From IMG/VR virus record IMGVR_UViG_3300023174_000726, positions 1 through 21,129 of that record: DNA of 21,129 nucleotides. The stretch is one strand, 5' to 3'. Shown in pieces: positions 3,833 through 21,129 of this stretch. The translations under genes were made by a program, and so were the position numbers. The DNA comes from a virus. The notes beneath the pieces were generated by a model. It did no database searches, was not told the origin of the DNA, and worked only from the letters and a program-made list of their open reading frames with translations. Numbering within the stretch: position 1 is the stretch's first letter; every line of letters begins with the position of its first letter.

Positions 3833-3863
3833 ATAACGAACTATATTAGAAAAATTGATAAAT

Positions 3864-4868
3864 ATGGCAATACACACAAAAGTATCACCTGACGAACGCA
3901 TTACTATGAACGCATTGGACAATTTTGATCCATTTGCTCGAAATGGAGTTCCAACGAAGCCACTTAACCAACCAAAAGTTGCAAAAAAGCCCGGAAGACC
4001 ACCAAAAACAAGCGAAACCTTGCAAAATGAGGTTCGTAATGTTGAAATCACGACAGAAACCGAAGGAAAAAGCGACTTAGAGCCAATATGTGCAGAAAAA
4101 CTGCACACAAATGCAATAAATACTGTTTTTGAAGCAAAAACTGAAGAAATACCACAAAAATCTGAATCATTACAGCTTCCAATTGTAGAATCCAGAAATA
4201 GTGAAGGGTTGCCAAGCTACAGATGCGAATTTGAAGGACGTGATATATTTGTTGGATTCTCATGCTACAAGGCAACAAATCCTGTAACAGCATTTGCTTT
4301 AATCAACATGGGTCTTGATTTCGGGCGAGACAAGATCCGCTTTGACTTCTCTGTAGCAGAGAATACATTTTACCATTCTCGCAACGAACTTGCTAAAAAG
4401 TTTCTTGAAACGGATGCGAAATGGTTGCTTTTAATCGACAATGACATTGTGCCGTCGATTGGACGTCCAGCTTGGGCGAAAGCAAGTATTGGAGCAGCCC
4501 GTAATTTGTTTGATTTGCCTCTACAGCGTCATGTAATCCATCGCTTGATAGGTAGTGGCAAAACGCTTGTCGGAGGGGCTTATTTCGCCAATATGGACAA
4601 ATCATCAATCGTTTGTTCAAACAAAGGACTTGCTGACAAAGCTAAAGCATACACGGACGAGATAGCAGAAGTGGACTGGATTGGATCTGGGTGTTTATTG
4701 ATTCATCGAAAAGTTCTACTTGCGATGGAAGAAAAGAACGAGAATTTAAACAAGAATTTCTTTTACCCGGATGATATTTCGTTCTGCAAACGCGCCAAGG
4801 ATGCCGGGCATCAACCGCACATTGATCTCGGACTTCCAGTTTTTCATGTAGGAGTAAAATCTTATTAA
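3864..4868 (+). CDS. Glycosyltransferase-like protein with disordered N-terminus
   Basis: This 334-residue protein resembles GT-A fold glycosyltransferases found in phage structural clusters, which transfer a sugar from a nucleotide-sugar donor to an unknown acceptor. I chose the ATG at 3864; a TTG three codons upstream is in frame but less likely. Residues 1-115 are low complexity and include KKPGRPPKT, which resembles an AT-hook, and an ERITMNALDNFD segment resembling the scaffold C-terminus. The catalytic-type region follows: RNELAKKFLETDAKW, then LLLIDNDIVP near residue 188 (a DxD-type metal/donor site), GSGCLLIHRKVLLAM, and YPDDISFCKRAKDAG near the end, with a terminal HVG typical of this group. 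Target may be virion proteins or the host surface. Confidence 0.75.
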   Translation: MAIHTKVSPDERITMNALDNFDPFARNGVPTKPLNQPKVAKKPGRPPKTSETLQNEVRNVEITTETEGKSDLEPICAEKLHTNAINTVFEAKTEEIPQKSESLQLPIVESRNSEGLPSYRCEFEGRDIFVGFSCYKATNPVTAFALINMGLDFGRDKIRFDFSVAENTFYHSRNELAKKFLETDAKWLLLIDNDIVPSIGRPAWAKASIGAARNLFDLPLQRHVIHRLIGSGKTLVGGAYFANMDKSSIVCSNKGLADKAKAYTDEIAEVDWIGSGCLLIHRKVLLAMEEKNENLNKNFFYPDDISFCKRAKDAGHQPHIDLGLPVFHVGVKSY

Positions 4869-4879
4869 TATATCAAATT
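4867..4879 (+). repeat. 13-nt repeat after stop codon, copy 2
   Basis: This is a second exact copy of AATATATCAAATT, here overlapping the TAA stop of the preceding glycosyltransferase-like gene. The spacer 4869-4929 that follows is A/T-rich; I cannot identify a convincing promoter in it. Confidence 0.4.
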
Positions 4880-4929
4880 GGGTATATTGTTATACATTAA
4901 CGCAAATAATGCACCTTATCTGATACATT

Positions 4930-5508
4930 ATGAAACATAAAATTTACGCTTACTACGAAGCAATCCAATCATTGCCACAGGACGAAGAGTTCTCTTGCGC
5001 CAACTACTGGAAGCAATCATGGGAAAAAAACGGATGGGAATGCGTGATGCTGAATAAGTCTCATGCGGTAGCTTCTGCGGTTCACCAGAAGCTCATGCAG
5101 AAATTGGTCAAGTTGTCATTCGCTTTACCAATGGAACTACAAAGCAAATTTCCGATGATAGTTGCTCGATTCTCCCGCTGGTCAGCACTTCACGCGGCAG
5201 GTGGTGGGTGGATGTCGGATTACGATGTTTTTAATTATTCTCTTACTCCTGATATTGCTAATCAATCAGCAAAAACTTTGAACCTAATTGCAGGTGAACC
5301 ATGCCATTTGTTTTATGCAACCCGTGAACATTGTGCGGCAGCAATCACAAAGTTTATTAATGAAGAATTGGTTGAAGGATCTTCGCTTCGATTTGAATCT
5401 GACATACTAAATTTAACTGAAAATTTAAATCATTTTTCTGACAAAATCCATCACGCCAAAAAAGGTGATAAGCCTAAATCTGAAGTGATGGCAGCATTAC
5501 TTCAATAA
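4930..5508 (+). CDS. Glycosyltransferase with DxD sugar-binding motif
   Basis: This 192-residue protein has the hallmark of small glycosyltransferases of the Gly_transf_sug / capsular-synthesis type: RWSALHAAGGGWMSDYDVF, in which Asp97-Tyr98-Asp99 form the DxD motif that binds metal and nucleotide sugar. The N-terminus (KIYAYYEAIQ ... SWEKNGWECVMLN) fits the first strand-helix unit. A GEPCHLFYATREH segment and a basic C-terminus complete it. It is the last gene before the 803-base gap and lies directly after another glycosyltransferase-like gene, so the pair may act in sequence on one acceptor. The start is the only ATG near the beginning of the conserved part, with no Shine-Dalgarno sequence. 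Confidence 0.75.
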   Translation: MKHKIYAYYEAIQSLPQDEEFSCANYWKQSWEKNGWECVMLNKSHAVASAVHQKLMQKLVKLSFALPMELQSKFPMIVARFSRWSALHAAGGGWMSDYDVFNYSLTPDIANQSAKTLNLIAGEPCHLFYATREHCAAAITKFINEELVEGSSLRFESDILNLTENLNHFSDKIHHAKKGDKPKSEVMAALLQ

Positions 5509-5839
5509 TCATTCTGGAAGGCTTGAGGTTGGCGGCAAGAGACACTTCGCCCATTGCGTTGAAGAAGTTGTCTTTGTCAATACTCATTCCGTGTAGGAAT
5601 CGGCAGTATGGCATTTCGACATTAATGCTATTGTCTTTATCGGGCCGCACCAACACTCAACATTCACCCTCAATAGCACCTTCGCCCACATTTCTGTGGC
5701 GTGTATTCAAATACCAATTTCGTGACATCACGAAATTGGTATTTGTGACTGGTTGGCATGGCTTCATCATTCCAGTCATGTGCGTAAACTTGGCAAGTAA
5801 ACCCGCAGGATCGTTGCCATTGTCTCTGTCATATTTCGC
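5474..5839 (-). pseudogene. Possible decayed minus-strand coding region
   Basis: On the minus strand, 5839-5474 reads as one frame of about 120 codons interrupted only by a TGA at 5659-5657. The upstream part contains NGNDPAGLLAKFTHMTGMMK and the downstream part FLHGMSIDKDNFFNAMGEVS, both with natural-looking composition. Across this region the + strand becomes T-rich instead of A-rich, the opposite of every neighbouring gene, which supports minus-strand coding. A + strand frame of 126 codons (5523-5903, TTG start) covers the same bases, but its product is hydrophobic and shadow-like. I cannot name a family. Either reading could be wrong; remnant, TGA readthrough or non-coding RNA remain possible. 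Confidence 0.3.
5708..5745. repeat. Perfect 18-bp inverted repeat with 2-nt centre
   Basis: CAAATACCAATTTCGTGA (5708-5725) is followed by CA and then its exact reverse complement (5728-5745), making a 38-bp near-palindrome. There is no T-tract on either side, so it does not look like a simple terminator. A cruciform, a protein-binding operator, a recombination site or a transposon relic are possible. The perfect arms in a region of poor coding quality suggest a functional or recent element. Confidence 0.85.
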
Positions 5840-5903
5840 TCACAGATATAGCATCATTGCGAGCTACTTTGAGAGAACTGCTTTACGCTTCATGCTAAAG
5901 TAA

Positions 5904-5940
5904 TAACCCGCCTTGACGTATACGGCATCAAGACGGGTTA
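5904..5940 (+). terminator. Terminator-like hairpin in the large intergenic gap
   Basis: TAACCCGCCTTGA (5904-5916) pairs with TCAAGACGGGTTA (5928-5940) with a single C/A mismatch, around an 11-base loop that contains the self-complementary CGTATACG. The + side is followed by TATTTTACC, a weak T-tract. This is consistent with an intrinsic terminator ending transcription from the scaffold/glycosyltransferase genes before the separate unit that starts near 6312. It could instead be a bidirectional or regulatory hairpin. Confidence 0.55.
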
Positions 5941-6063
5941 TATTTTACCAGAGGAAAAAATGTTTCGCCTGAATTCCGTATAAATTCAAGTAAGATGTTG
6001 AAAATATTGCATTGTTTTTTTAACACGTCAAATATTTTTTTCAAAAAAATTAAAAACTTTTTC

Positions 6064-6092
6064 TTGACATATTCAAAAAAAAATCGTAGTCG
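6064..6092 (+). promoter_or_regulatory. Candidate promoter, good -35, poor -10
   Basis: A consensus -35 box TTGACA lies at 6064-6069, downstream of an A/T-rich stretch with several poly-A and poly-T runs. At the 17-base spacing the -10 position reads TAGTCG (6087-6092), a poor match; TAATTA occurs further on at 6094-6099 with too long a spacing for sigma-70. If it is active, transcripts would carry a leader of roughly 210 bases before the ATG at 6312. Confidence 0.35.
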
Positions 6093-6311
6093 CTAATTAT
6101 CTCGACGAGTCAGCTTCGTATGCTGATGACTCCGTGGAAGTCACAAGAATCCACAAACAGGCCGTATTAACAAGCCCAACGTGCCGGGGCGAACAAACAA
6201 GAAAAAAGCAAAGAACTGCGTATGCGGTCTATGCACTTGAATGTCGCCCATTAGATTTTCTAAAGGGTCGGTTCAAGCAGAACAAACCTAAAACAAAACT
6301 TAAAATAACAA
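6093..6311 (+). other. Leader with short inverted repeats and no clear gene
   Basis: This stretch has no supported gene. It holds a hairpin at 6107-6132 (GAGTCAGC, loop TTCGTAT, GCT, a GAT bulge, GACTC) and a second possible stem 6134-6138 / 6150-6154 (GTGGA/TCCAC, 11-base loop) immediately after. A short frame 6130-6240 encodes GSHKNPQTGRINKPNVPGRT and a Cys-rich end (CVCGLCT), but it is preceded by tandem TGA codons and has no start, so it is at best a remnant. Together with 5509-6092 this makes up the 803-base gap. It may be a structured leader of the 6312 gene, a small RNA, or a gene remnant. Confidence 0.4.
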
Positions 6312-7274
6312 ATGAAGATTATCAAAAACCTCCTTCTGGTGACAGCTTCTATGCTGGCGTTGCTCGGCAGTGCCAATGCGTATAATCCTATCACGCTTAC
6401 AGGCGGAACATTTAATTCAGACCCATTCAAAGGTCAGTCGGTTGCTACTTTTAAGGTTGGCGATAAAGAGCTAACACTTACAGATTGGCAAGCAAACACT
6501 GCAAATGCAACTGCGAAAGGATTTGATATTTCAACTCCAACCGCTGGTGGCGCAAATTTCCCAGTTGAAAACGTGTCATGGTATGACGCAGTCAAGTGGT
6601 GCAATTTGGCAAGCATTGAACAAGGCATTACTCCAGTTTACCAAACCTCGTCAATTGGCGTAACGATAACACGCAACAGCACTACTGCAACGGCAACGGC
6701 AACTGCTCCGCATGGTCTTTCCACGGGCAATCACGTTACCATTGCTGGGGCTACTCCTTCTGGCTATAACTTGACCGCCGCAATCACAGTTGTAACGCCT
6801 ACCACCTTTACTTATTCAGTAAGTGGTAATCTTACAACACCTGCGACTGGAACAATTACCGCTGGAGTTATTTACAAGAGTGGTGAGACGTTTCCAAATG
6901 TAAACGCATCAGCTAACGGATACCGCTTGCCAACCGAAAAGGAATGGCAGTGGGCAGCAATTGGTGGAACCAATCAAAACACATATTTGTATAGCGGTAG
7001 CAATACTGCAAATACTGTAGCTTGGTCACGCACAAACAGCCCATCTGGAGCCAAAGAGGTTGGAACAAAAACAGCAAATAGCCAATCTATTTACGATATG
7101 AGCGGAAACGTATTTGAATGGGTCTTCGACGAAGTCCCCGGAATCGTTGGTCGCCGTGTTCGTGGTGGTGGCTGGGTTGTTGACGCTGATAGCTGTCAGA
7201 TTTCCATTCGTGGATATTCTGCTGCTTCTCGTCAAGAATCTGGATTTGGTTTCCGTGTATTCCAAAACAATTAA
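6312..7274 (+). CDS. Secreted FGE/SUMF1-like (C-type lectin fold) protein
   Basis: This 320-residue protein has a Sec signal peptide (residues 1-23, Lys-rich start, LLLVTASMLALLGS core, ANA cleavage site). The FGE-sulfatase/SUMF1 domain follows: PVENVSWYDAVKWCN at 84-98, GYRLPTEKEWQWAA at about 203-216, DMSGNVFEWVFDE near 262, RGGGW at 284-288 and FGFRVF at the end. In formylglycine-generating enzymes two Cys five residues apart after the GGS motif bind copper; here only Cys295 is present and the other position is Val290, so enzyme activity is unlikely. A Thr/Ala-rich beta module is inserted at about 113-187. The fold is that of lectin-like binding proteins and retroelement-diversified proteins. 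It lies just upstream of the coat gene and after a terminator-like hairpin, like a moron. Confidence 0.85.
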   Translation: MKIIKNLLLVTASMLALLGSANAYNPITLTGGTFNSDPFKGQSVATFKVGDKELTLTDWQANTANATAKGFDISTPTAGGANFPVENVSWYDAVKWCNLASIEQGITPVYQTSSIGVTITRNSTTATATATAPHGLSTGNHVTIAGATPSGYNLTAAITVVTPTTFTYSVSGNLTTPATGTITAGVIYKSGETFPNVNASANGYRLPTEKEWQWAAIGGTNQNTYLYSGSNTANTVAWSRTNSPSGAKEVGTKTANSQSIYDMSGNVFEWVFDEVPGIVGRRVRGGGWVVDADSCQISIRGYSAASRQESGFGFRVFQNN

Positions 7275-7320: not shown

Positions 7321-8514
7321 ATGTCTAACAATTGTATCCCATTGGCGACTATCCAAAACTTCGCCTCCAAAGATGTCAACCGCATCATCGGCCAAATCGG
7401 TCGCGTGCTTGCTCGTAAATCTCCATACGTCAATTCGATTGATGGTGGAACTCTCCCTAACGTATCGGACGTCGTTCGTAGCGTGGTTGAGGAAATGGCA
7501 GTGCCTGCCGCTTCGCTCGCTTCTCCTACGTTCTTTAACGACACCACACTTTGCGGTCAAGGTGCTACTCCCGACCAAGTTGGTTCTACTGAGTATCAAT
7601 TCCAACTCCAAACCCTTCGTGGTGCTGGGCCTCGCGTTTGCGTAAAGCAAGCTCGGACTGCTTTTAAAGGCAGTTACCTCCAAGCTCAAGTCTCGTTGGA
7701 AAAAACGATCCTCCAGATCATCAATGCTGACATCCGTTATCAATACCTGATTCAGTCTGGCATCAAATACGTTGTGGATTCCACTTCGACTTTTGATTCC
7801 AACCTCACAGGTGATATGCAACAGATTAACACTCTGTTTGCAAGCAAAACCCCGGATTCTCCGATGAATTTCAAGACACTCTATCGTATTGGAACTTTCC
7901 TCCGCGAAGAGATGCTTGCCGAACCTTTTGCTACAAAAGACGGTGAGTTTTTCCAAGTGCTTGCTTCCGCCGATCAGATTGAGAACTTCCGTAATGACGC
8001 TGATGTCAAAGAAGACCTCCTCTATCTCTCCGCTGGTAGCTTCAAGCTCGGCGAAGAGTCCATCAGTGGTTATCAGTTCATGGGCTATCGTGGTTTCGCT
8101 TTTGGTATTGACCAACAGCCTCTCCGCGCTACCGCAAACGTGGCCGGAACTCTCACGTTGGTTAACCCCATCGTTTCGACTGCCGTAACTAACGGATTTG
8201 CTCAACGCCGTAACCCTGCTTGGGTTTCCGCGCCTTACGAAGTCATGTTCGTCATCGCTGGCGAAGCATTCAAACGTCTTGTTCCTGAACAATACGTTGG
8301 TGAAGGAACATTCAAGTTTGCTCCTCAACTCGCAATGGGCGAACTGGAATGGACTTATTTCCGCGACAACGATTGCAACCTGTATGGTGACTATGGTCAG
8401 CATATCTATCAAATCCAACGCGCTATCCAGCCGATCCGCCCACAGAACGTGTGCGCCATCGTCTACAAGCGTTGCGCTTTTGATACAGGTGTAACTCCTT
8501 GCGTTGTTCCCTAA
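7321..8514 (+). CDS. Major capsid (coat) protein
   Basis: This 397-residue protein is the best candidate for the coat protein that forms the icosahedral shell. It starts MSNNCIPLATIQNFASKDVN, has the long-helix type segment LQAQVSLEKTILQIINADIR (about residues 121-140), and ends in a region (LEWTYFRDNDCNLYGDYGQH) similar to coat proteins I know from environmental phages. Its codons are visibly richer in C-ending forms (CTC, TTC, CGC, ATC) than those of its neighbours, as expected for the most highly expressed virion gene. Position after the scaffold and portal block agrees. It is preceded by an A-rich leader without Shine-Dalgarno and followed by a strong hairpin. An HK97-type fold is expected but cannot be shown from sequence alone. 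Confidence 0.8.
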   Translation: MSNNCIPLATIQNFASKDVNRIIGQIGRVLARKSPYVNSIDGGTLPNVSDVVRSVVEEMAVPAASLASPTFFNDTTLCGQGATPDQVGSTEYQFQLQTLRGAGPRVCVKQARTAFKGSYLQAQVSLEKTILQIINADIRYQYLIQSGIKYVVDSTSTFDSNLTGDMQQINTLFASKTPDSPMNFKTLYRIGTFLREEMLAEPFATKDGEFFQVLASADQIENFRNDADVKEDLLYLSAGSFKLGEESISGYQFMGYRGFAFGIDQQPLRATANVAGTLTLVNPIVSTAVTNGFAQRRNPAWVSAPYEVMFVIAGEAFKRLVPEQYVGEGTFKFAPQLAMGELEWTYFRDNDCNLYGDYGQHIYQIQRAIQPIRPQNVCAIVYKRCAFDTGVTPCVVP

Positions 8515-8859: not shown

Positions 8860-10851
<1,992 letters not shown>

Positions 10852-10853
10852 CT

Positions 10854-11012
10854 ATGATCGAACGATACGTTATTTTAAACGAAGATGGCGGATGGCTGGA
10901 AAATAATATCCTCTGGGATGGAAATATTGAAACGTGGCAACCTCCCGTAGGAACTATTGTTAAATTAGAGTCTGAAATTGATTATCAGACACTACCGCAA
11001 AAACCAGAATAA
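10854..11012 (+). CDS. Small protein after the fibre gene
   Basis: This is a 52-residue protein whose ATG at 10854 lies 2 bases after the stop of the collagen-like gene; in-frame codons upstream of this ATG lie inside the Gly-rich coding region and are not a plausible start. It is acidic and Trp-rich (DGGWLENNILWDGNIETWQP). I do not recognise a family. Its last base is the first base of the next start (TAATG). The position between a fibre gene and the lysis cassette suggests a fibre accessory or a hypothetical protein of the lysis operon. Confidence 0.7.
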   Translation: MIERYVILNEDGGWLENNILWDGNIETWQPPVGTIVKLESEIDYQTLPQKPE

Positions 11013-11194
11013 TGGACACTCATTCTTTTAACGCAAGTATGGCAGGATTATTAGCAACTGCTACATCAGTTGGTATTTCTTTCTTGCCAGAAGTAGAGCA
11101 ATGGTTACGGATTGTTTCACTAATAGTTGGTATTTTAGTTGGATTTGGATCACTCATTGTCCTCGCCAAAAATTGGAATAAAAATAAATCTTGA
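11012..11194 (+). CDS. Holin-like small membrane protein
   Basis: This 60-residue protein has two hydrophobic segments: a weak one around residues 9-25 (MAGLLATATSVGISFLP) and a strong one around 32-52 (LRIVSLIVGILVGFGSLIVL), followed by a basic tail KNWNKNKS. Size, topology and the endolysin 400 bases downstream fit a small holin that permeabilises the inner membrane at lysis. It overlaps the preceding stop by one base and the following start by one base (TGATG), so its translation is coupled to its neighbours. Confidence 0.7.
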   Translation: MDTHSFNASMAGLLATATSVGISFLPEVEQWLRIVSLIVGILVGFGSLIVLAKNWNKNKS

Positions 11195-11397
11195 TGAAAT
11201 ATAAAATTGCATTAGCATTAATTATATGCTTTGCATTTACAAGTTGCGTTTCAATACCACTTCCTCCATATGGAGACAAAATTGGAGACTATGGTAAAAT
11301 TCAACTTTCATTAAATGTAAAGTATTTCCCACCAGAACAAAAAATAGATTGGTTTAATCCAATCATACCTCAACCTAAACTATATAAAGATAAATGA
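11194..11397 (+). CDS. Small lipoprotein, possible spanin subunit
   Basis: This 67-residue protein starts at the ATG overlapping the previous stop; a TTG one codon upstream is less likely. The N-terminus MKYKIALALIICFAFTSC is a lipoprotein signal peptide with a lipobox (FTSC), so the mature protein would start with a lipidated Cys18. The mature part is Pro-rich and short (SIPLPPYGDK, then FNPIIPQPKLYKDK), like outer-membrane spanin lipoproteins (Rz1 type) that help disrupt the outer membrane at lysis. This points to a Gram-negative-type host. No partner with one membrane anchor and a coiled coil is obvious nearby. A lysis-unrelated lipoprotein is also possible. Confidence 0.6.
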   Translation: MKYKIALALIICFAFTSCVSIPLPPYGDKIGDYGKIQLSLNVKYFPPEQKIDWFNPIIPQPKLYKDK

Positions 11398-11570
11398 AAA
11401 TCGTAGATTACATATTAGCTCGCCTGTCTGAAAGCTCAACTTGGCGTGGTTTGGCACTTATTATTGGCGCAAGTGGGATAGCTATTGATCCATCCAAAGC
11501 CAATGCGATTGCCGCAGCGGGGATGGCAGTTGCAGGCGCAATAAACGTGTTCCGAACAGAGAAAAAATAA
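11394..11570 (+). CDS. Second holin-like membrane protein
   Basis: This 58-residue protein reads MKIVDYILARLSESSTWRGL, then LALIIGASGIAI (first hydrophobic segment), a PSKA turn, and NAIAAAGMAVAGAINVF (second), ending in a charged RTEKK tail. The pattern 'RLSExSTWRGLALxxxxxG ... AIxAAGxAxAGxIxVF' is familiar from phage holin-type proteins next to endolysins. It overlaps the lipoprotein stop (ATGA) and ends exactly before the endolysin ATG, strongly supporting a role in lysis. Having two holin-like genes suggests a holin/antiholin pair, which is inference. Confidence 0.75.
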   Translation: MKIVDYILARLSESSTWRGLALIIGASGIAIDPSKANAIAAAGMAVAGAINVFRTEKK

Positions 11571-12098
11571 ATGATTGACAAACTAATTGCCATTGCGACT
11601 TCGCAGGTTGGCGTTAGAGAAGTTGGCGGTAATAATTGCGGAGAAAAGATCCGCGAATACCAAACCGCGACCGAATTAGATCTTGGAGCTTGGCCTTGGT
11701 GCGCCGCATTTGTTGATTGGTGTGTAAAGAAGTGGTTGGATGACGCAAAGGTTGTAATGTGGCTTGACTTAAAGAAAAAGACTCCAGAAGAATGGCGTCC
11801 CAAAACAGCTATGGCGTATGGATTAACGTCATGGGCAAAAAAGCGTCCAAATACAACAAACATTTACACTGAAAAAGACATTGCGAAGCCGGGTGATATT
11901 GTAACATTTGATTTTTCGCATACAGGAATAATTCTTGAGGATTGTGGAGATCATATTGTAACAATTGAGGGAAATACTAACGGGAAAGGCGACCGAGATT
12001 CCGAATCTGGTGATGGAGTTTGGCGAAAAATCAGGGCAAAGCACTTGATAAAAGACTTAATACGAATACATCCATCAATAAAACAAAATAATGGCTAA
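11571..12098 (+). CDS. Endolysin, CHAP/NlpC-P60-type amidase or peptidase
   Basis: This 175-residue enzyme is a CHAP-type cysteine amidase/peptidase that cuts peptidoglycan peptide bonds at lysis. The N-terminus IAIATSQVGVREVGGNNCGE is typical of these domains. The catalytic Cys44 lies in WPWCAAFVDWC, His117 in FDFSHTGIIL, and a third polar position in IEGNTN (about 132-137). PGDIVTF before the His strand is also characteristic. No signal peptide is present, so export would need the holin encoded just upstream. There is no separate cell-wall-binding domain. The gene starts immediately after the holin-like stop and overlaps the next gene by 8 bases. Confidence 0.85.
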   Translation: MIDKLIAIATSQVGVREVGGNNCGEKIREYQTATELDLGAWPWCAAFVDWCVKKWLDDAKVVMWLDLKKKTPEEWRPKTAMAYGLTSWAKKRPNTTNIYTEKDIAKPGDIVTFDFSHTGIILEDCGDHIVTIEGNTNGKGDRDSESGDGVWRKIRAKHLIKDLIRIHPSIKQNNG

Positions 12099-13376: not shown

Positions 13377-14807
13377 ATGGCGAAATATAATTGGGTTCCA
13401 AGCCCACAAGGTTCTTCAAATTGCGGTTGCGCTCCATTGAATGCAATGGATTGTCATTGGCCTTATGTTGGCGCGACAGGGGCGACTGGTGCTACTGGAA
13501 TTGGTTCTACAGGCGCAACAGGGTTGATTGGAAATGATGGCGCAACGGGAATCGCTGGTGCTACTGGATTGACTGGAAGTCAAGGTTCTACTGGCGCGAC
13601 AGGAATTGTTGGCGGACAAGGATCAACAGGAGCCACTGGGTTGACTGGCAATCAAGGCTCGACTGGTGCTACAGGTGCTACTGGTTTGACTGGAAACCAA
13701 GGTTCTACTGGGGCTACTGGATCAACTGGAGCAACAGGGTTGAGCGGAAATGATGGTTCAACTGGAGCTACGGGAATCGTTGGAGGACAAGGTTCTACTG
13801 GAGCTACAGGTGTAGCAGGTATTGATGGTGCAACGGGAAGCACTGGAGCAACTGGAGCCACAGGCTTAACTGGATCGCAGGGTTCCACGGGAGCTACTGG
13901 AGCTACTGGAGCAACGGGGTCAACGGGTATCCAAGGGTCGACTGGTGCAACTGGAATAGGTTCTACTGGAGCGACTGGAGTAACGGGAGGACAAGGAGCA
14001 ACTGGCAGCACTGGCGCAACTGGAATCCAAGGCATTCAAGGAGCAACTGGAAGCACTGGAAGCATTGGAGTTCAAGGGTCAACTGGAGCAACAGGTGTTA
14101 CTGGCGGTCAAGGTTCAACTGGTGCAACAGGTGTTACTGGCGGTCAAGGTTCAACTGGTGCAACTGGTGTTACTGGCGGTCAAGGGTCAACTGGTGCAAC
14201 TGGAATTACAGGTATACAAGGAGCTACTGGGATTGGTGCTACAGGTGCTACAGGAATTACAGGCGGTCAAGGTTCTACTGGATTGCAAGGAAGCACGGGT
14301 GCAACTGGCGTTGTTGGTGGTCAAGGGGCAACCGGCTCGACTGGTGTAACTGGAGGGCAAGGCTCAACAGGTTCAACAGGTTCTACAGGAGCAACTGGAG
14401 TTCAAGGCATACAGGGCATTCAAGGCAGCACAGGAGCTACTGGCATTGGAGCTACTGGCGCAACTGGCATTCAAGGTAATCAAGGAAGCACAGGAGCTAC
14501 TGGCATTGGAGCTACTGGCGCAACTGGTTTGCAAGGCTCCACAGGCCCACAAGGTGCAACTGGTGTAATTCCAGCGTCAAACGCAGGAAATGTTTGGACG
14601 TTTACTGGAAATGGAACAACGACAACATGGACATTAACTGGAAATACAAGCGGAAGTCTTGTATCTGCAAATTATCTTGTAGCTGTTGATGGTGTTTTAC
14701 AAGCTCCAGCAAACTATACAATCAACAATGTCTCTCCAAGGACACTAACAATTTCAACTGTTCCAAGTGGAAGCGCACTTGTTGTAGTTTCGCTTTCTAC
14801 AGCATAA
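13377..14807 (+). CDS. Second collagen-like fibre protein
   Basis: This 476-residue fibre protein has a Cys-containing N-terminus ([18 protein letters not shown]) that differs from the first collagen-like protein and could be disulphide-linked or attach to the virion. Gly-X-Y triplets run from about residue 32 to 398, again with GAT, GST, GGQ and NQG units. The C-terminal beta domain of about 75 residues contains [14 protein letters not shown] and [19 protein letters not shown], a small fibre-tip module that also occurs in the next gene. A 36-bp unit encoding [12 protein letters not shown] is repeated in tandem near 14094-14201. It has its own promoter and is probably displayed on the tail or capsid for surface binding. 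Confidence 0.85.
14094..14201 (+). repeat. Three tandem 36-bp units in the second fibre gene
   Basis: Three nearly identical copies of a 36-bp unit (GGTGTTACTGGCGGTCAAGG and following bases) encode [12 protein letters not shown]. Thirty-two of these bases (14097-14128) are identical to 9877-9908 in the first collagen-like gene, so the two genes could recombine. Confidence 0.85.
14427..14527 (+). repeat. 41-bp direct repeat, 60 bases apart
   Basis: Bases 14427-14467 and 14487-14527 are identical and encode [14 protein letters not shown]-type triplets close to the end of the collagen region. The 60-base period keeps the frame. Confidence 0.8.
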
Positions 14808-18667: not shown

Positions 18668-21129
18668 ATGTTTGTATCGGAAATCTTCGATGAATGTGCT
18701 GAAATTTTAGGGACTACCAACGAAAAGAAGGTTTTTCGTAAAATAACGCAAGCTGTCCAGACTCTGATGGAGTCAGGGCATTGGACGCACACGACCGCAG
18801 AAATTGATGTCTGCACGGGATGGGATCGTTGTTCATTGACGTTGCCTCGCGGGATTGACGTTCCTTTAGCAGTCAACATTGATGGATCTCCGACATATTT
18901 CCGCAATCGTTTGTTCCAATACCATGTCAACAAGGGAGGAATGTATAGTTCCGTTGAGTGGGCGTGGGATGATCGAGGTTATGTAGCGACCCTGATGGAC
19001 ATTATCCAGCCTTCGCAGCTTGTTGCTGTTGCCGAAAGTAATAATGACGTTGGAAAGAAGTTGCGAGTTCTTGGAATTGATCAAAACAACAGAACACTTC
19101 GCGCCCAGATGCCTAATGGTGCTGGCGTTGATGGATTGTTGATACCGATACATTCCCAACAAGACTTTCAATACGGAACGATTGCGCCAGATGACGCAAC
19201 GATTGCAACCCGGCAAGTTGCTATAACTCCGATTACCGATTTTACTACAACGACTGCGCATGGTCTTTCTTCTGGTCAAGGAATGTCTGCGCGTGTTCTT
19301 ACAGGCACAATTCCAGTTCCGCTCAACGATGGTCAAACTTATTACGTTGGCGTAATTGACGCTTTTACAGTTCAACTTTTTAGCGATTCATTAAATGCAC
19401 AAGCACTGCAATATCCAATTGCACTTTCCAGTATCGTTGGATTTGGTTCAATGCAACTCCGCGACAAGCGAAATGCGCAGGTTGAAACTACGCTTAAATT
19501 CGCTTCTGCGCCTTCTTTTGCTATTGATTCGCCCAATGAGGTTGTATTCCCAACAACTCCTCTCCCTGCGCCTCTGGAAGCGAAAAAAACATATTTTGCA
19601 CAACCGATTGATTCGCTGAACTTGAATATCTTCAATTCGCTATCTGATGCGAATAGCAATTCAAATCCGATTTACACAACTGGATCAATGGCAGCGATTG
19701 ATATTGATATCCGCAAACCAATCGTTCCAGAGACAAAATTAGTATTTTCGGTCAAACATTATTTCAATGATGGCGACCAAGTTCAAGCGGCAACTAATGG
19801 CGGGACGCTGCCGCAACCACTGATTGCGAACCAGAACTATTTTGTCAACGTCATTGACGATTATTCTGTTTCGTTACATGAAAATCAAGCGGATGCCAAT
19901 TCATCAACGCCGACAAATTTTGTAAATCCAATCAAAATAACAACAAGTGGAGCAGGAACGAACTCGCTTGTTAAACTTATTCAATCTACTTCCAAAGTTG
20001 GGACACAAAGTCAAATTACTGCGCCCGGATTGACTATTGGAACTCCATCTGGGTCTGGAGCGCAATTTCAAGCCATTGTGACTGGTGTAGTCACAAGTGT
20101 TCATGTTAATGGTGGGGGGACTTATTCTTCTGCTCCTGAAGTTACTTTTTCTGCTCCAACTGACTTGCCAACTGGAAGCTCAATAGAACAACGAGCCGCA
20201 ACTGGATATGCTTTATTGGCTGGAACATCAGTTACAGCAATAGTAATAACTGACCCCGGATCAGGATATTCAACTGCTCCAACTATTTCATTTTCAGCAG
20301 GAACATCTGCAGCAACGGCAACAGCAACAATAACAACATCATTTGTTTCTGGATTCACCAAAATTTCTGGCGGATTTAATTATACTGAAGCACCCCAAGT
20401 TAAAATAACTGGCACTGGGACTGGCGCGACTGCTACGGCTACAATAAACAGCACAAATCTTGTTGTTAACTCCATTACAAGAGTAAGCACAACAGCAACA
20501 ACAACCACCGCAACCCCTCATGGTTTTGTAACTGGTCAAACTGTTAAAATTAATGGATGCATTGGAACATCTGTTGGTTTTAATGGAAACAAAACAATTA
20601 CAGTTCCAACGATTGATACTGTTGTTTCATCAATAATTAAAATAAATCCTACAGATACTATAGCGACAGTAACAACGTCTTCAAATCACGATTATAATAC
20701 TGGCGATAGAGTAACTATTTCTGGATGCACTGGAACATCTGCTGGATACAATTCTGATTACAATGTTGTGGTAACAGGACTTACGACATTTACCATAAAT
20801 GTAGCTTCAACGCTTCCAACTCCTGCTGTTGGAGTTTCAAAATTGTCTTCAATTGCGGATAATAGTGCAACTACTTTTACATATGTGGTTGCAAATACAC
20901 TCCCAGCAAGTGCGGCAGGAACAATTTCAGTATTTTCTGGAGAAGTAACAGGATTAACTATTGTAACTGCTGGAACTGGATACACGACTCCACCGACAGT
21001 TACGATTACTCCATCAACTGGCGTTTTTGTGAATTTTTCATCCACGGGAATATTACCTTCTCCGCTTGTATCAGGAAATGCTTATCGTGCAGAAACTCCG
21101 ATATCTGGAAATACATTTACTGTCAAAAA
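18668..21129 (+). CDS. Adaptor-like protein with long beta-repeat extension, 3'-truncated
   Basis: The frame is open from the ATG at 18668 to the window end, at least 820 residues. Residues 1-170 (FDECAEILGTTNEKKVFRKI, TLPRGIDVPLAVNIDGSPTY, DIIQPSQLVAVAE) match a family of phage proteins placed after head genes that I take to be a neck/tail adaptor or tail-tube-associated protein. The rest is beta repeats of several kinds: two 'HGLSSGQ ... YYVGVIDAFTVQL' units (near 195 and 360), several 'GSGYSTAPTISFS' units (near 475, 535 and later), and two 'HGFVTGQTVKING' units (near 612 and 666). The last type also occurs inside the FGE-like protein. The repeats are probably exposed, perhaps for adhesion. 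The stop lies beyond the window. Confidence 0.8.
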   Translation, partial: MFVSEIFDECAEILGTTNEKKVFRKITQAVQTLMESGHWTHTTAEIDVCTGWDRCSLTLPRGIDVPLAVNIDGSPTYFRNRLFQYHVNKGGMYSSVEWAWDDRGYVATLMDIIQPSQLVAVAESNNDVGKKLRVLGIDQNNRTLRAQMPNGAGVDGLLIPIHSQQDFQYGTIAPDDATIATRQVAITPITDFTTTTAHGLSSGQGMSARVLTGTIPVPLNDGQTYYVGVIDAFTVQLFSDSLNAQALQYPIALSSIVGFGSMQLRDKRNAQVETTLKFASAPSFAIDSPNEVVFPTTPLPAPLEAKKTYFAQPIDSLNLNIFNSLSDANSNSNPIYTTGSMAAIDIDIRKPIVPETKLVFSVKHYFNDGDQVQAATNGGTLPQPLIANQNYFVNVIDDYSVSLHENQADANSSTPTNFVNPIKITTSGAGTNSLVKLIQSTSKVGTQSQITAPGLTIGTPSGSGAQFQAIVTGVVTSVHVNGGGTYSSAPEVTFSAPTDLPTGSSIEQRAATGYALLAGTSVTAIVITDPGSGYSTAPTISFSAGTSAATATATITTSFVSGFTKISGGFNYTEAPQVKITGTGTGATATATINSTNLVVNSITRVSTTATTTTATPHGFVTGQTVKINGCIGTSVGFNGNKTITVPTIDTVVSSIIKINPTDTIATVTTSSNHDYNTGDRVTISGCTGTSAGYNSDYNVVVTGLTTFTINVASTLPTPAVGVSKLSSIADNSATTFTYVVANTLPASAAGTISVFSGEVTGLTIVTAGTGYTTPPTVTITPSTGVFVNFSSTGILPSPLVSGNAYRAETPISGNTFTVK

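Follow-up and report, generated by a model that had tools for sequence, protein, structure and literature searches.

The DNA analysed here is the complete 21,129-base IMG/VR record IMGVR_UViG_3300023174_000726 (hereafter the window), which is probably a genome fragment. At 6312-7274 it encodes a protein that we consider, with moderate confidence, to be a non-enzymatic, Sec-exported binder with the formylglycine-generating enzyme (FGE) subtype of the C-type-lectin fold, acting on the host envelope. Its gene, accessory and moron-like, would form part of the coat gene unit. For the conserved RNA that precedes this gene we propose, judging the chances to be about even, a new type of regulatory RNA in phages, in which a three-pseudoknot, two-state switch sets coat expression, with the exported FGE gene as repeatedly placed cargo. 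An initial annotation of this DNA had overlooked both the leader RNA (6098-6280), which lies between a terminator and the reading frame, and a module of ~70 residues between the two halves of the FGE fold. Coordinates are collected in Table 1.

Table 1. Features of the FGE-coat region of the window
Feature	Position	Strand	Basis or remark
Intrinsic-terminator-like hairpin	5903-5941	+	Followed by TATATTTT; closes upstream transcript
Promoter-like TTGACA - 17 nt - TAGTCG	6064-6092	+	TTGACA-like box similarly spaced in nearly all relatives
Leader 5' domain (model R1)	6098-6197	+	Helices P1-P3 and three pseudoknots; covariation
PK0	6103-6105 x 6116-6118	+	R1
P1	6109-6114 x 6122-6127	+	R1
P2	6128-6131 x 6139-6142	+	R1
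PK1	6134-6138 x 6150-6154	+	R1
P3	6160-6164 x 6180-6185	+	R1
PK2	6174-6177 x 6187-6190	+	R1
Switch-like 3' domain	6187-6277	+	Own versus swapped duplex energies
S2, pairing with S1/PK2a 6174-6177 (PK2) or with S3 6242-6249 (P5)	6187-6195	+	Duplex energies
P6 (S3 with S4 instead)	6236-6249 x 6265-6277	+	Duplex energies
Accessory gene for a 320-aa protein with the FGE-subtype C-type-lectin fold, predicted to be secreted	6312-7274	+	Pfam, PDB, AlphaFold model
Signal peptide, residues 1-23, predicted cleavage SANA/Y24	6312-6380	+	Such an N-terminus in 20/20 orthologues
Inserted beta module, residues ~114-186	6651-6869	+	phrog_9998-like; homologous stretch in virion protein 20636-20887
Codons for Gly287, Val290, and Cys295 (human FGE Ser333, Cys336, and Cys341)	7170-7196	+	Alignment
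Coat (major capsid) gene, 397 aa	7321-8514	+	Downstream gene in the unit of the FGE reading frame; 84-94% identical in 80 relatives

The product of 6312-7274 matched the Pfam family FGE-sulfatase (PF03781) with 87.6 bits and an E-value of 1.4e-24, and its sequence matches in the PDB were TvpA (E 1.1e-20, the best), CarF, and SUMF2. An AlphaFold model based on an alignment of 32 sequences (pLDDT 80.7, pTM 0.77) had its best fold matches in the PDB with TvpA (E 3.3e-15), CarF (TM-score 0.75 by target length), PvdO, and FGE, true FGEs being ranked lower. The initial annotation had assigned an FGE/SUMF1-type fold and proposed structure prediction and structural comparison as a check; both lines of evidence agree with it, and the FGE-sulfatase/SUMF1 domain and the fold that an FGE requires are present. 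The fold is split by the inserted beta module, and similar modules are common in phage tail, fibre, baseplate, and structural proteins. The window's own large virion protein (18668-21127) likewise has a module, matching PF16190 (E1 FCCH), that is related to the insert. One orthologue, L026, has no insert and instead carries a short loop, VYTVNGQTYKTGE, resembling the VYTVGGVVYRTGD of the bacterial relative L094.

Human FGE has been described as having a catalytic triad, with Ser333 and Cys336 named (PMC6328139), and Cys341 is the partner cysteine. When the segment G287-W288-V289-V290-D-A-D-S-C295 was aligned to human GGSY-M-C336-xxxx-C341, only the last triad residue was found to be retained; the product therefore lacks the copper-binding cysteine pair and Ser333 that a catalytic FGE requires. 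This confirms the earlier reading of Cys295 as present and Val290 as occupying the other cysteine position. The same Gly/Val/Cys pattern was found in the orthologues L009 (74% identity) and L010 (58%). Across 20 orthologues, ten of them aligned and ten further read, the first cysteine (Cys1) was never found and the second (Cys2) was found in eight, all of which have Val at the Cys1 position; the Ser333-equivalent position is occupied by G, C, N, or A. As these residues are missing, it is very unlikely that the protein acts as an FGE, in line with the non-enzymatic role proposed initially, and the converse pattern named at that time as pointing to an enzyme, orthologues that all keep both cysteines, was not found. 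The description of the pair as "broken" was misleading. Among 64 readable motifs from close bacterial relatives, 33 had Cys2 only, 30 had neither cysteine, one had Cys1 only, and none had both, so that a single cysteine is the ordinary inherited state of this branch and not a recent break.

The N-terminus, MKIIKNLLLVTASMLALLGSANA followed by Y24, combines a charged n-region with a hydrophobic core and an AxA site, and all 20 orthologues keep this signal-peptide-like shape despite diverged letters. Signal peptides were rated by a simple score, not a dedicated predictor, and among 22 other predicted genes of the window that were scored, only the lipoprotein-like gene at 11191 scored equally high. 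The Sec signal peptide of the initial annotation is thus borne out, and because a signal peptide implies export, the exported protein that it envisaged is supported by the shape conserved in 20/20 orthologues. The gene at 11191 lies in a likely lysis cassette (11012-12098) comprising a small holin-like membrane protein, a spanin-like lipoprotein with a lipobox-like TSC, and a CHAP endolysin. By inspection alone, the lipobox-like N-terminus (TSC) of the small reading frame 11191-11397 fits an outer-membrane spanin, which would suggest a Gram-negative host.

As predicted initially, the coat gene lies immediately 3' of the FGE gene, 46 nt from its stop codon. The coat protein had no family match, and its structural model was of low confidence (pLDDT 45), with weak fold matches that were mostly to phage capsid chains and none of them significant; 7321-8514 is assigned as the putative coat gene on position, conservation, and these weak matches. 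From the 163 relatives that a scan with the coat protein gave, we examined the best 80. No relative of the coat or the leader was found among annotated phages, and no coat match in 388 Verrucomicrobiota genomes; the nearest bacterial FGE domains are mostly from Verrucomicrobiota. In L063, L066, L067, L076, L077, and L081 the coat frame seems to be ~38-55 residues longer at its N-terminus, giving a longer gap between leader and coat.

Model R1 of the leader, derived from 39 leaders, had a match in each of the 80 best coat relatives as well as in the window, L009, and L010, the match to L039 being partial because that contig is cut. Among the 79 full-match loci (coat 84-94% identical; drawn from the best 80 of 163), 72 have no gene between the RNA and the coat gene, with a gap of 101-182 nt, or of 225-274 nt in the six with an extended coat frame. 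The remaining seven carry the FGE gene in this position, with a gap of 955-1158 nt compared with 1123 nt in the window. Ten further FGE loci from a separate scan have R1 upstream and the coat gene just downstream, and the order RNA-FGE-coat is seen at 20 loci in all in these uncultured phages. When mapped on the coat tree, the FGE gene must have been gained or lost five times, each change being forced by well-supported branches. The proteins from ten of these phages nevertheless group in a single clade (support 100/99) that includes neither bacterial FGE domains nor those of other phages, which argues for exchange, or for loss on repeated occasions, at a fixed site. Whole-gene dN/dS values of 0.04-0.15, and of 0.03-0.15 for the C-terminal half, indicate purifying selection and hence a function that has been kept. 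By its distribution and position the FGE gene is an accessory gene, predicted to be the first in the coat transcript. The initial suggestion of a moron holds in part: presence in seven and absence from 72 of 79 close relatives at the same site, with five changes on the coat tree, is as expected of a moron, but the gene does not have its own promoter and terminator. Since it is located behind the coat leader and promoter without a terminator of its own, we call it moron-like rather than a classical moron. In a second phage lineage (L176-L185, L327-L337), the encoded FGE-fold protein belongs to a different clade and has no insert, and the leader RNA was absent from this lineage where it was looked for.

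The terminator-like hairpin noted initially upstream of the FGE gene was corroborated by its stability (MFE -18.2 kcal/mol, z -4.4, with 0/200 shuffles equally stable) and by the tract that follows it; it is missing from the list of a simple terminator scan because its loop and bulges exceed the scan pattern. The promoter-like element is likewise missing from a generic scan because its -10 box is weak. Its pattern in relatives is TTGACA-N17-TAnnnn, and the RNA fold begins ~10 nt further on. Scans for hairpins and terminators found no terminator-like hairpin between the FGE and coat genes, and from the order promoter, leader, FGE, coat, with no terminator before the coat gene, the two genes would be co-transcribed. 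Upstream of the hairpin, ~400 nt (5509-5900) separate it from the gene at 4930-5508; partly similar DNA occurs in L014 and L015, with no forward reading frame shared with them. By inspection, the window genes just 5' of the leader are glycosyltransferase/methyltransferase-like, as they are in relatives, although no significant Pfam match was obtained for those of the window; such genes would fit a surface-modification locus. Gene content differs among relatives in 3855-5508 and the corresponding stretch of L014-L093, in the manner of a cargo hotspot.

The conserved leader RNA (~200 nt) occurs in the window and in 79 relatives (e.g. L078:5796-5990), 5' of the FGE gene or, in phages that do not have it, 5' of the coat gene, and was found at every examined coat locus long enough to show it. 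Its pseudoknots are supported by covariation in the alignment. In alignment A4, 88.6% of cells were paired across the 27 pairs of R1 versus 29-47% in slid versions of the structure; 21 pairs changed on both sides, with 200 such cells versus 57 in shuffles, and the covariation score was 0.493 versus 0.175 when shuffled. As relatedness inflates the shuffle contrasts, better support comes from the slid control and from the many different helices that each stem shows. Support is weakest for PK0, with both-side change in one of its three pairs. R1 scored 96.9 bits against the window, from whose sequence its structure was drawn. Searches of Rfam 15 with the window (E <= 1) and seven relatives (E <= 2), and at gathering scores, gave no relevant match to the leader, and no tRNA or tmRNA was found in the window; a hammerhead or other known ribozyme, a tRNA, and a tmRNA were ruled out on these grounds. 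No described coat-leader RNA was found in a literature search limited to open-licence papers. A wide DNA pattern search of viral contigs yielded 12 R1 matches among the loci searched, 11 strong and one weak (19 bits); the strong ones are mostly on contigs already known through the coat, and most other pattern matches are due to chance.

The 3' part of the leader offers alternative pairings. When the duplexes of 17 representatives were compared with swapped duplexes, the leader's own were more stable for PK2 (-8.5 vs -5.8 kcal/mol), P5 (-13.3 vs -9.4), and P6 (-15.3 vs -10.0); for each, 0/5000 permutations were as good, a count that does not give independent-event probabilities as the representatives are related. 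Reversed-strand controls were near z 0 and unrelated regions were likewise without effect. The part of S2 beyond PK2 alone gave a weak P5 signal (z -1.9, 167/5000), so that much of the evidence for P5 rests on shared bases. P5 uses two to four of the four PK2b bases in 39/39 leaders, and since the same bases are used in every leader, P5 and PK2 cannot both form fully. On account of this sharing we call the leader switch-like, real switching being the step that we infer. The states would be exclusive, S1:S2 with S3:S4 or S2:S3, the pseudoknots would lie consecutively at the 5' end of the mRNA, and the switch might work by binding a small ligand, the coat protein, or a different late protein. 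Trp-type attenuators also have such a chain of mutually exclusive pairings (S1-S2, S2-S3, and S3-S4); unlike these, the coat leader has a last hairpin without a U-tract and no evident leader peptide, and so probably does not act by transcription termination. The well-studied leader pseudoknot of T4 gene 32, which a 2010 review considered possibly the sole viral case in translation autoregulation, likewise precedes the start codon of a phage gene, within its 5' leader (PMC3014915). It is a single gp32-binding pseudoknot, whereas the coat leader has several, with alternative pairings, and no sequence relation is claimed.

Several roles for the FGE-fold protein have to be weighed, and known proteins of this fold bear on each. 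The main rival reading, which we regard as rather unlikely and which the initial annotation raised as an alternative, is that of a virion-displayed lectin anchored by the inserted beta module, its N-terminal segment being unused for export or tolerated. The adjoining coat gene fits this, as does the FGE-subtype fold of the phage receptor-binding protein Mtd (PMC6328139), and the kinship of the insert with virion protein 20636-20887 and with many phage structural proteins speaks for a virion part and counts against the explanation that we prefer. Display is nevertheless made less likely by the signal-peptide-like N-terminus of 20/20 orthologues, with which the protein would leave the cytoplasm where heads assemble, and by L026, which does without the insert; moreover, as most sister phages do not have the gene, particles do not need its product. 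Decidedly unlikely is a CarF-like role, in which the protein would bind a cell-wall or antibiotic-like ligand in the periplasm, for example protecting the infected cell until lysis. CarF, a periplasmic protein linked to carbapenem self-resistance, has an FGE-like fold without being an FGE enzyme, and its structure (PDB 5aoh) is the best match by TM-score, but the likeness is at fold level only (~22% identity), its gene neighbourhood is different, and no comparable insert appears in the alignment.

Treponema denticola TvpA (PDB 2y3c), an FGE-subtype C-type-lectin variable protein of a diversity-generating retroelement (DGR), is a ligand-binding scaffold, as is proposed here, and also lacks Cys1 while having Cys at the Cys2 position. 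As TvpA is the best PDB sequence match, the phage protein shares its fold, and its C-terminus has many NNY codons, we considered a DGR variable protein with the C-terminal FGE region as a hypervariable binding site. We find this very improbable and rejected it: no reverse transcriptase was found in the window or in six related contigs, one of 63.9 kb, these contigs being incomplete, and the C-terminus is conserved among orthologues under purifying selection, not subject to adenine-directed hypervariation. The phage protein also differs from TvpA in being encoded next to a coat gene and in its extra module. Hardly credible, too, is an active enzyme, either formylglycine-generating or a related oxidase, that would use an alternative metal site; the Pfam and fold matches and the one retained triad cysteine would suit it, but Cys1 and the Ser333 equivalent are missing in 20/20 orthologues and Cys2 in 12/20, and an active FGE was rejected as the triad is not retained. 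Human SUMF2 (PDB 1y4j), an FGE paralogue, is a non-catalytic protein without formylglycine activity and is likewise an exported FGE-fold protein, although it is eukaryotic and matched weakly in sequence (E 5.8e-5). The best viral fold match was the FGE-like reading frame, annotated as "kinase", of the Microcystis phages LMM01 and MaMV-DC, which is also phage-encoded but shares 38% identity over the C-terminal part and stands in another gene context.

The exported, non-enzymatic binder thus remains our preferred reading, and the protein would probably be produced alongside the capsid and act at the surface of the infected cell. Placed behind the promoter and leader, the FGE gene would be transcribed together with the coat gene in the late phase of infection, and removal of the signal peptide would leave a mature protein starting at Tyr24. 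This protein would most likely bind a ligand of the host envelope, such as a surface glycan or peptidoglycan, and thereby alter the infected cell or keep out competing phages. Elsewhere in the window, two large proteins (8860-10851 and 13377-14807) consist mainly of collagen-like Gly-X-Y repeats (GATGxTGATG); they have relatives in L009 and L010 and are probably fibres.

Taken together, our analysis suggests that a non-enzymatic, exported C-type-lectin scaffold is phage cargo that is gained and lost at one site, foremost in the coat message, and this cargo offers a way of testing how phages may control the host surface in late infection. The leader RNA, previously undescribed and opening the coat-gene message, would matter more than the protein, as its alternative pairings suggest an RNA switch that controls capsid expression.
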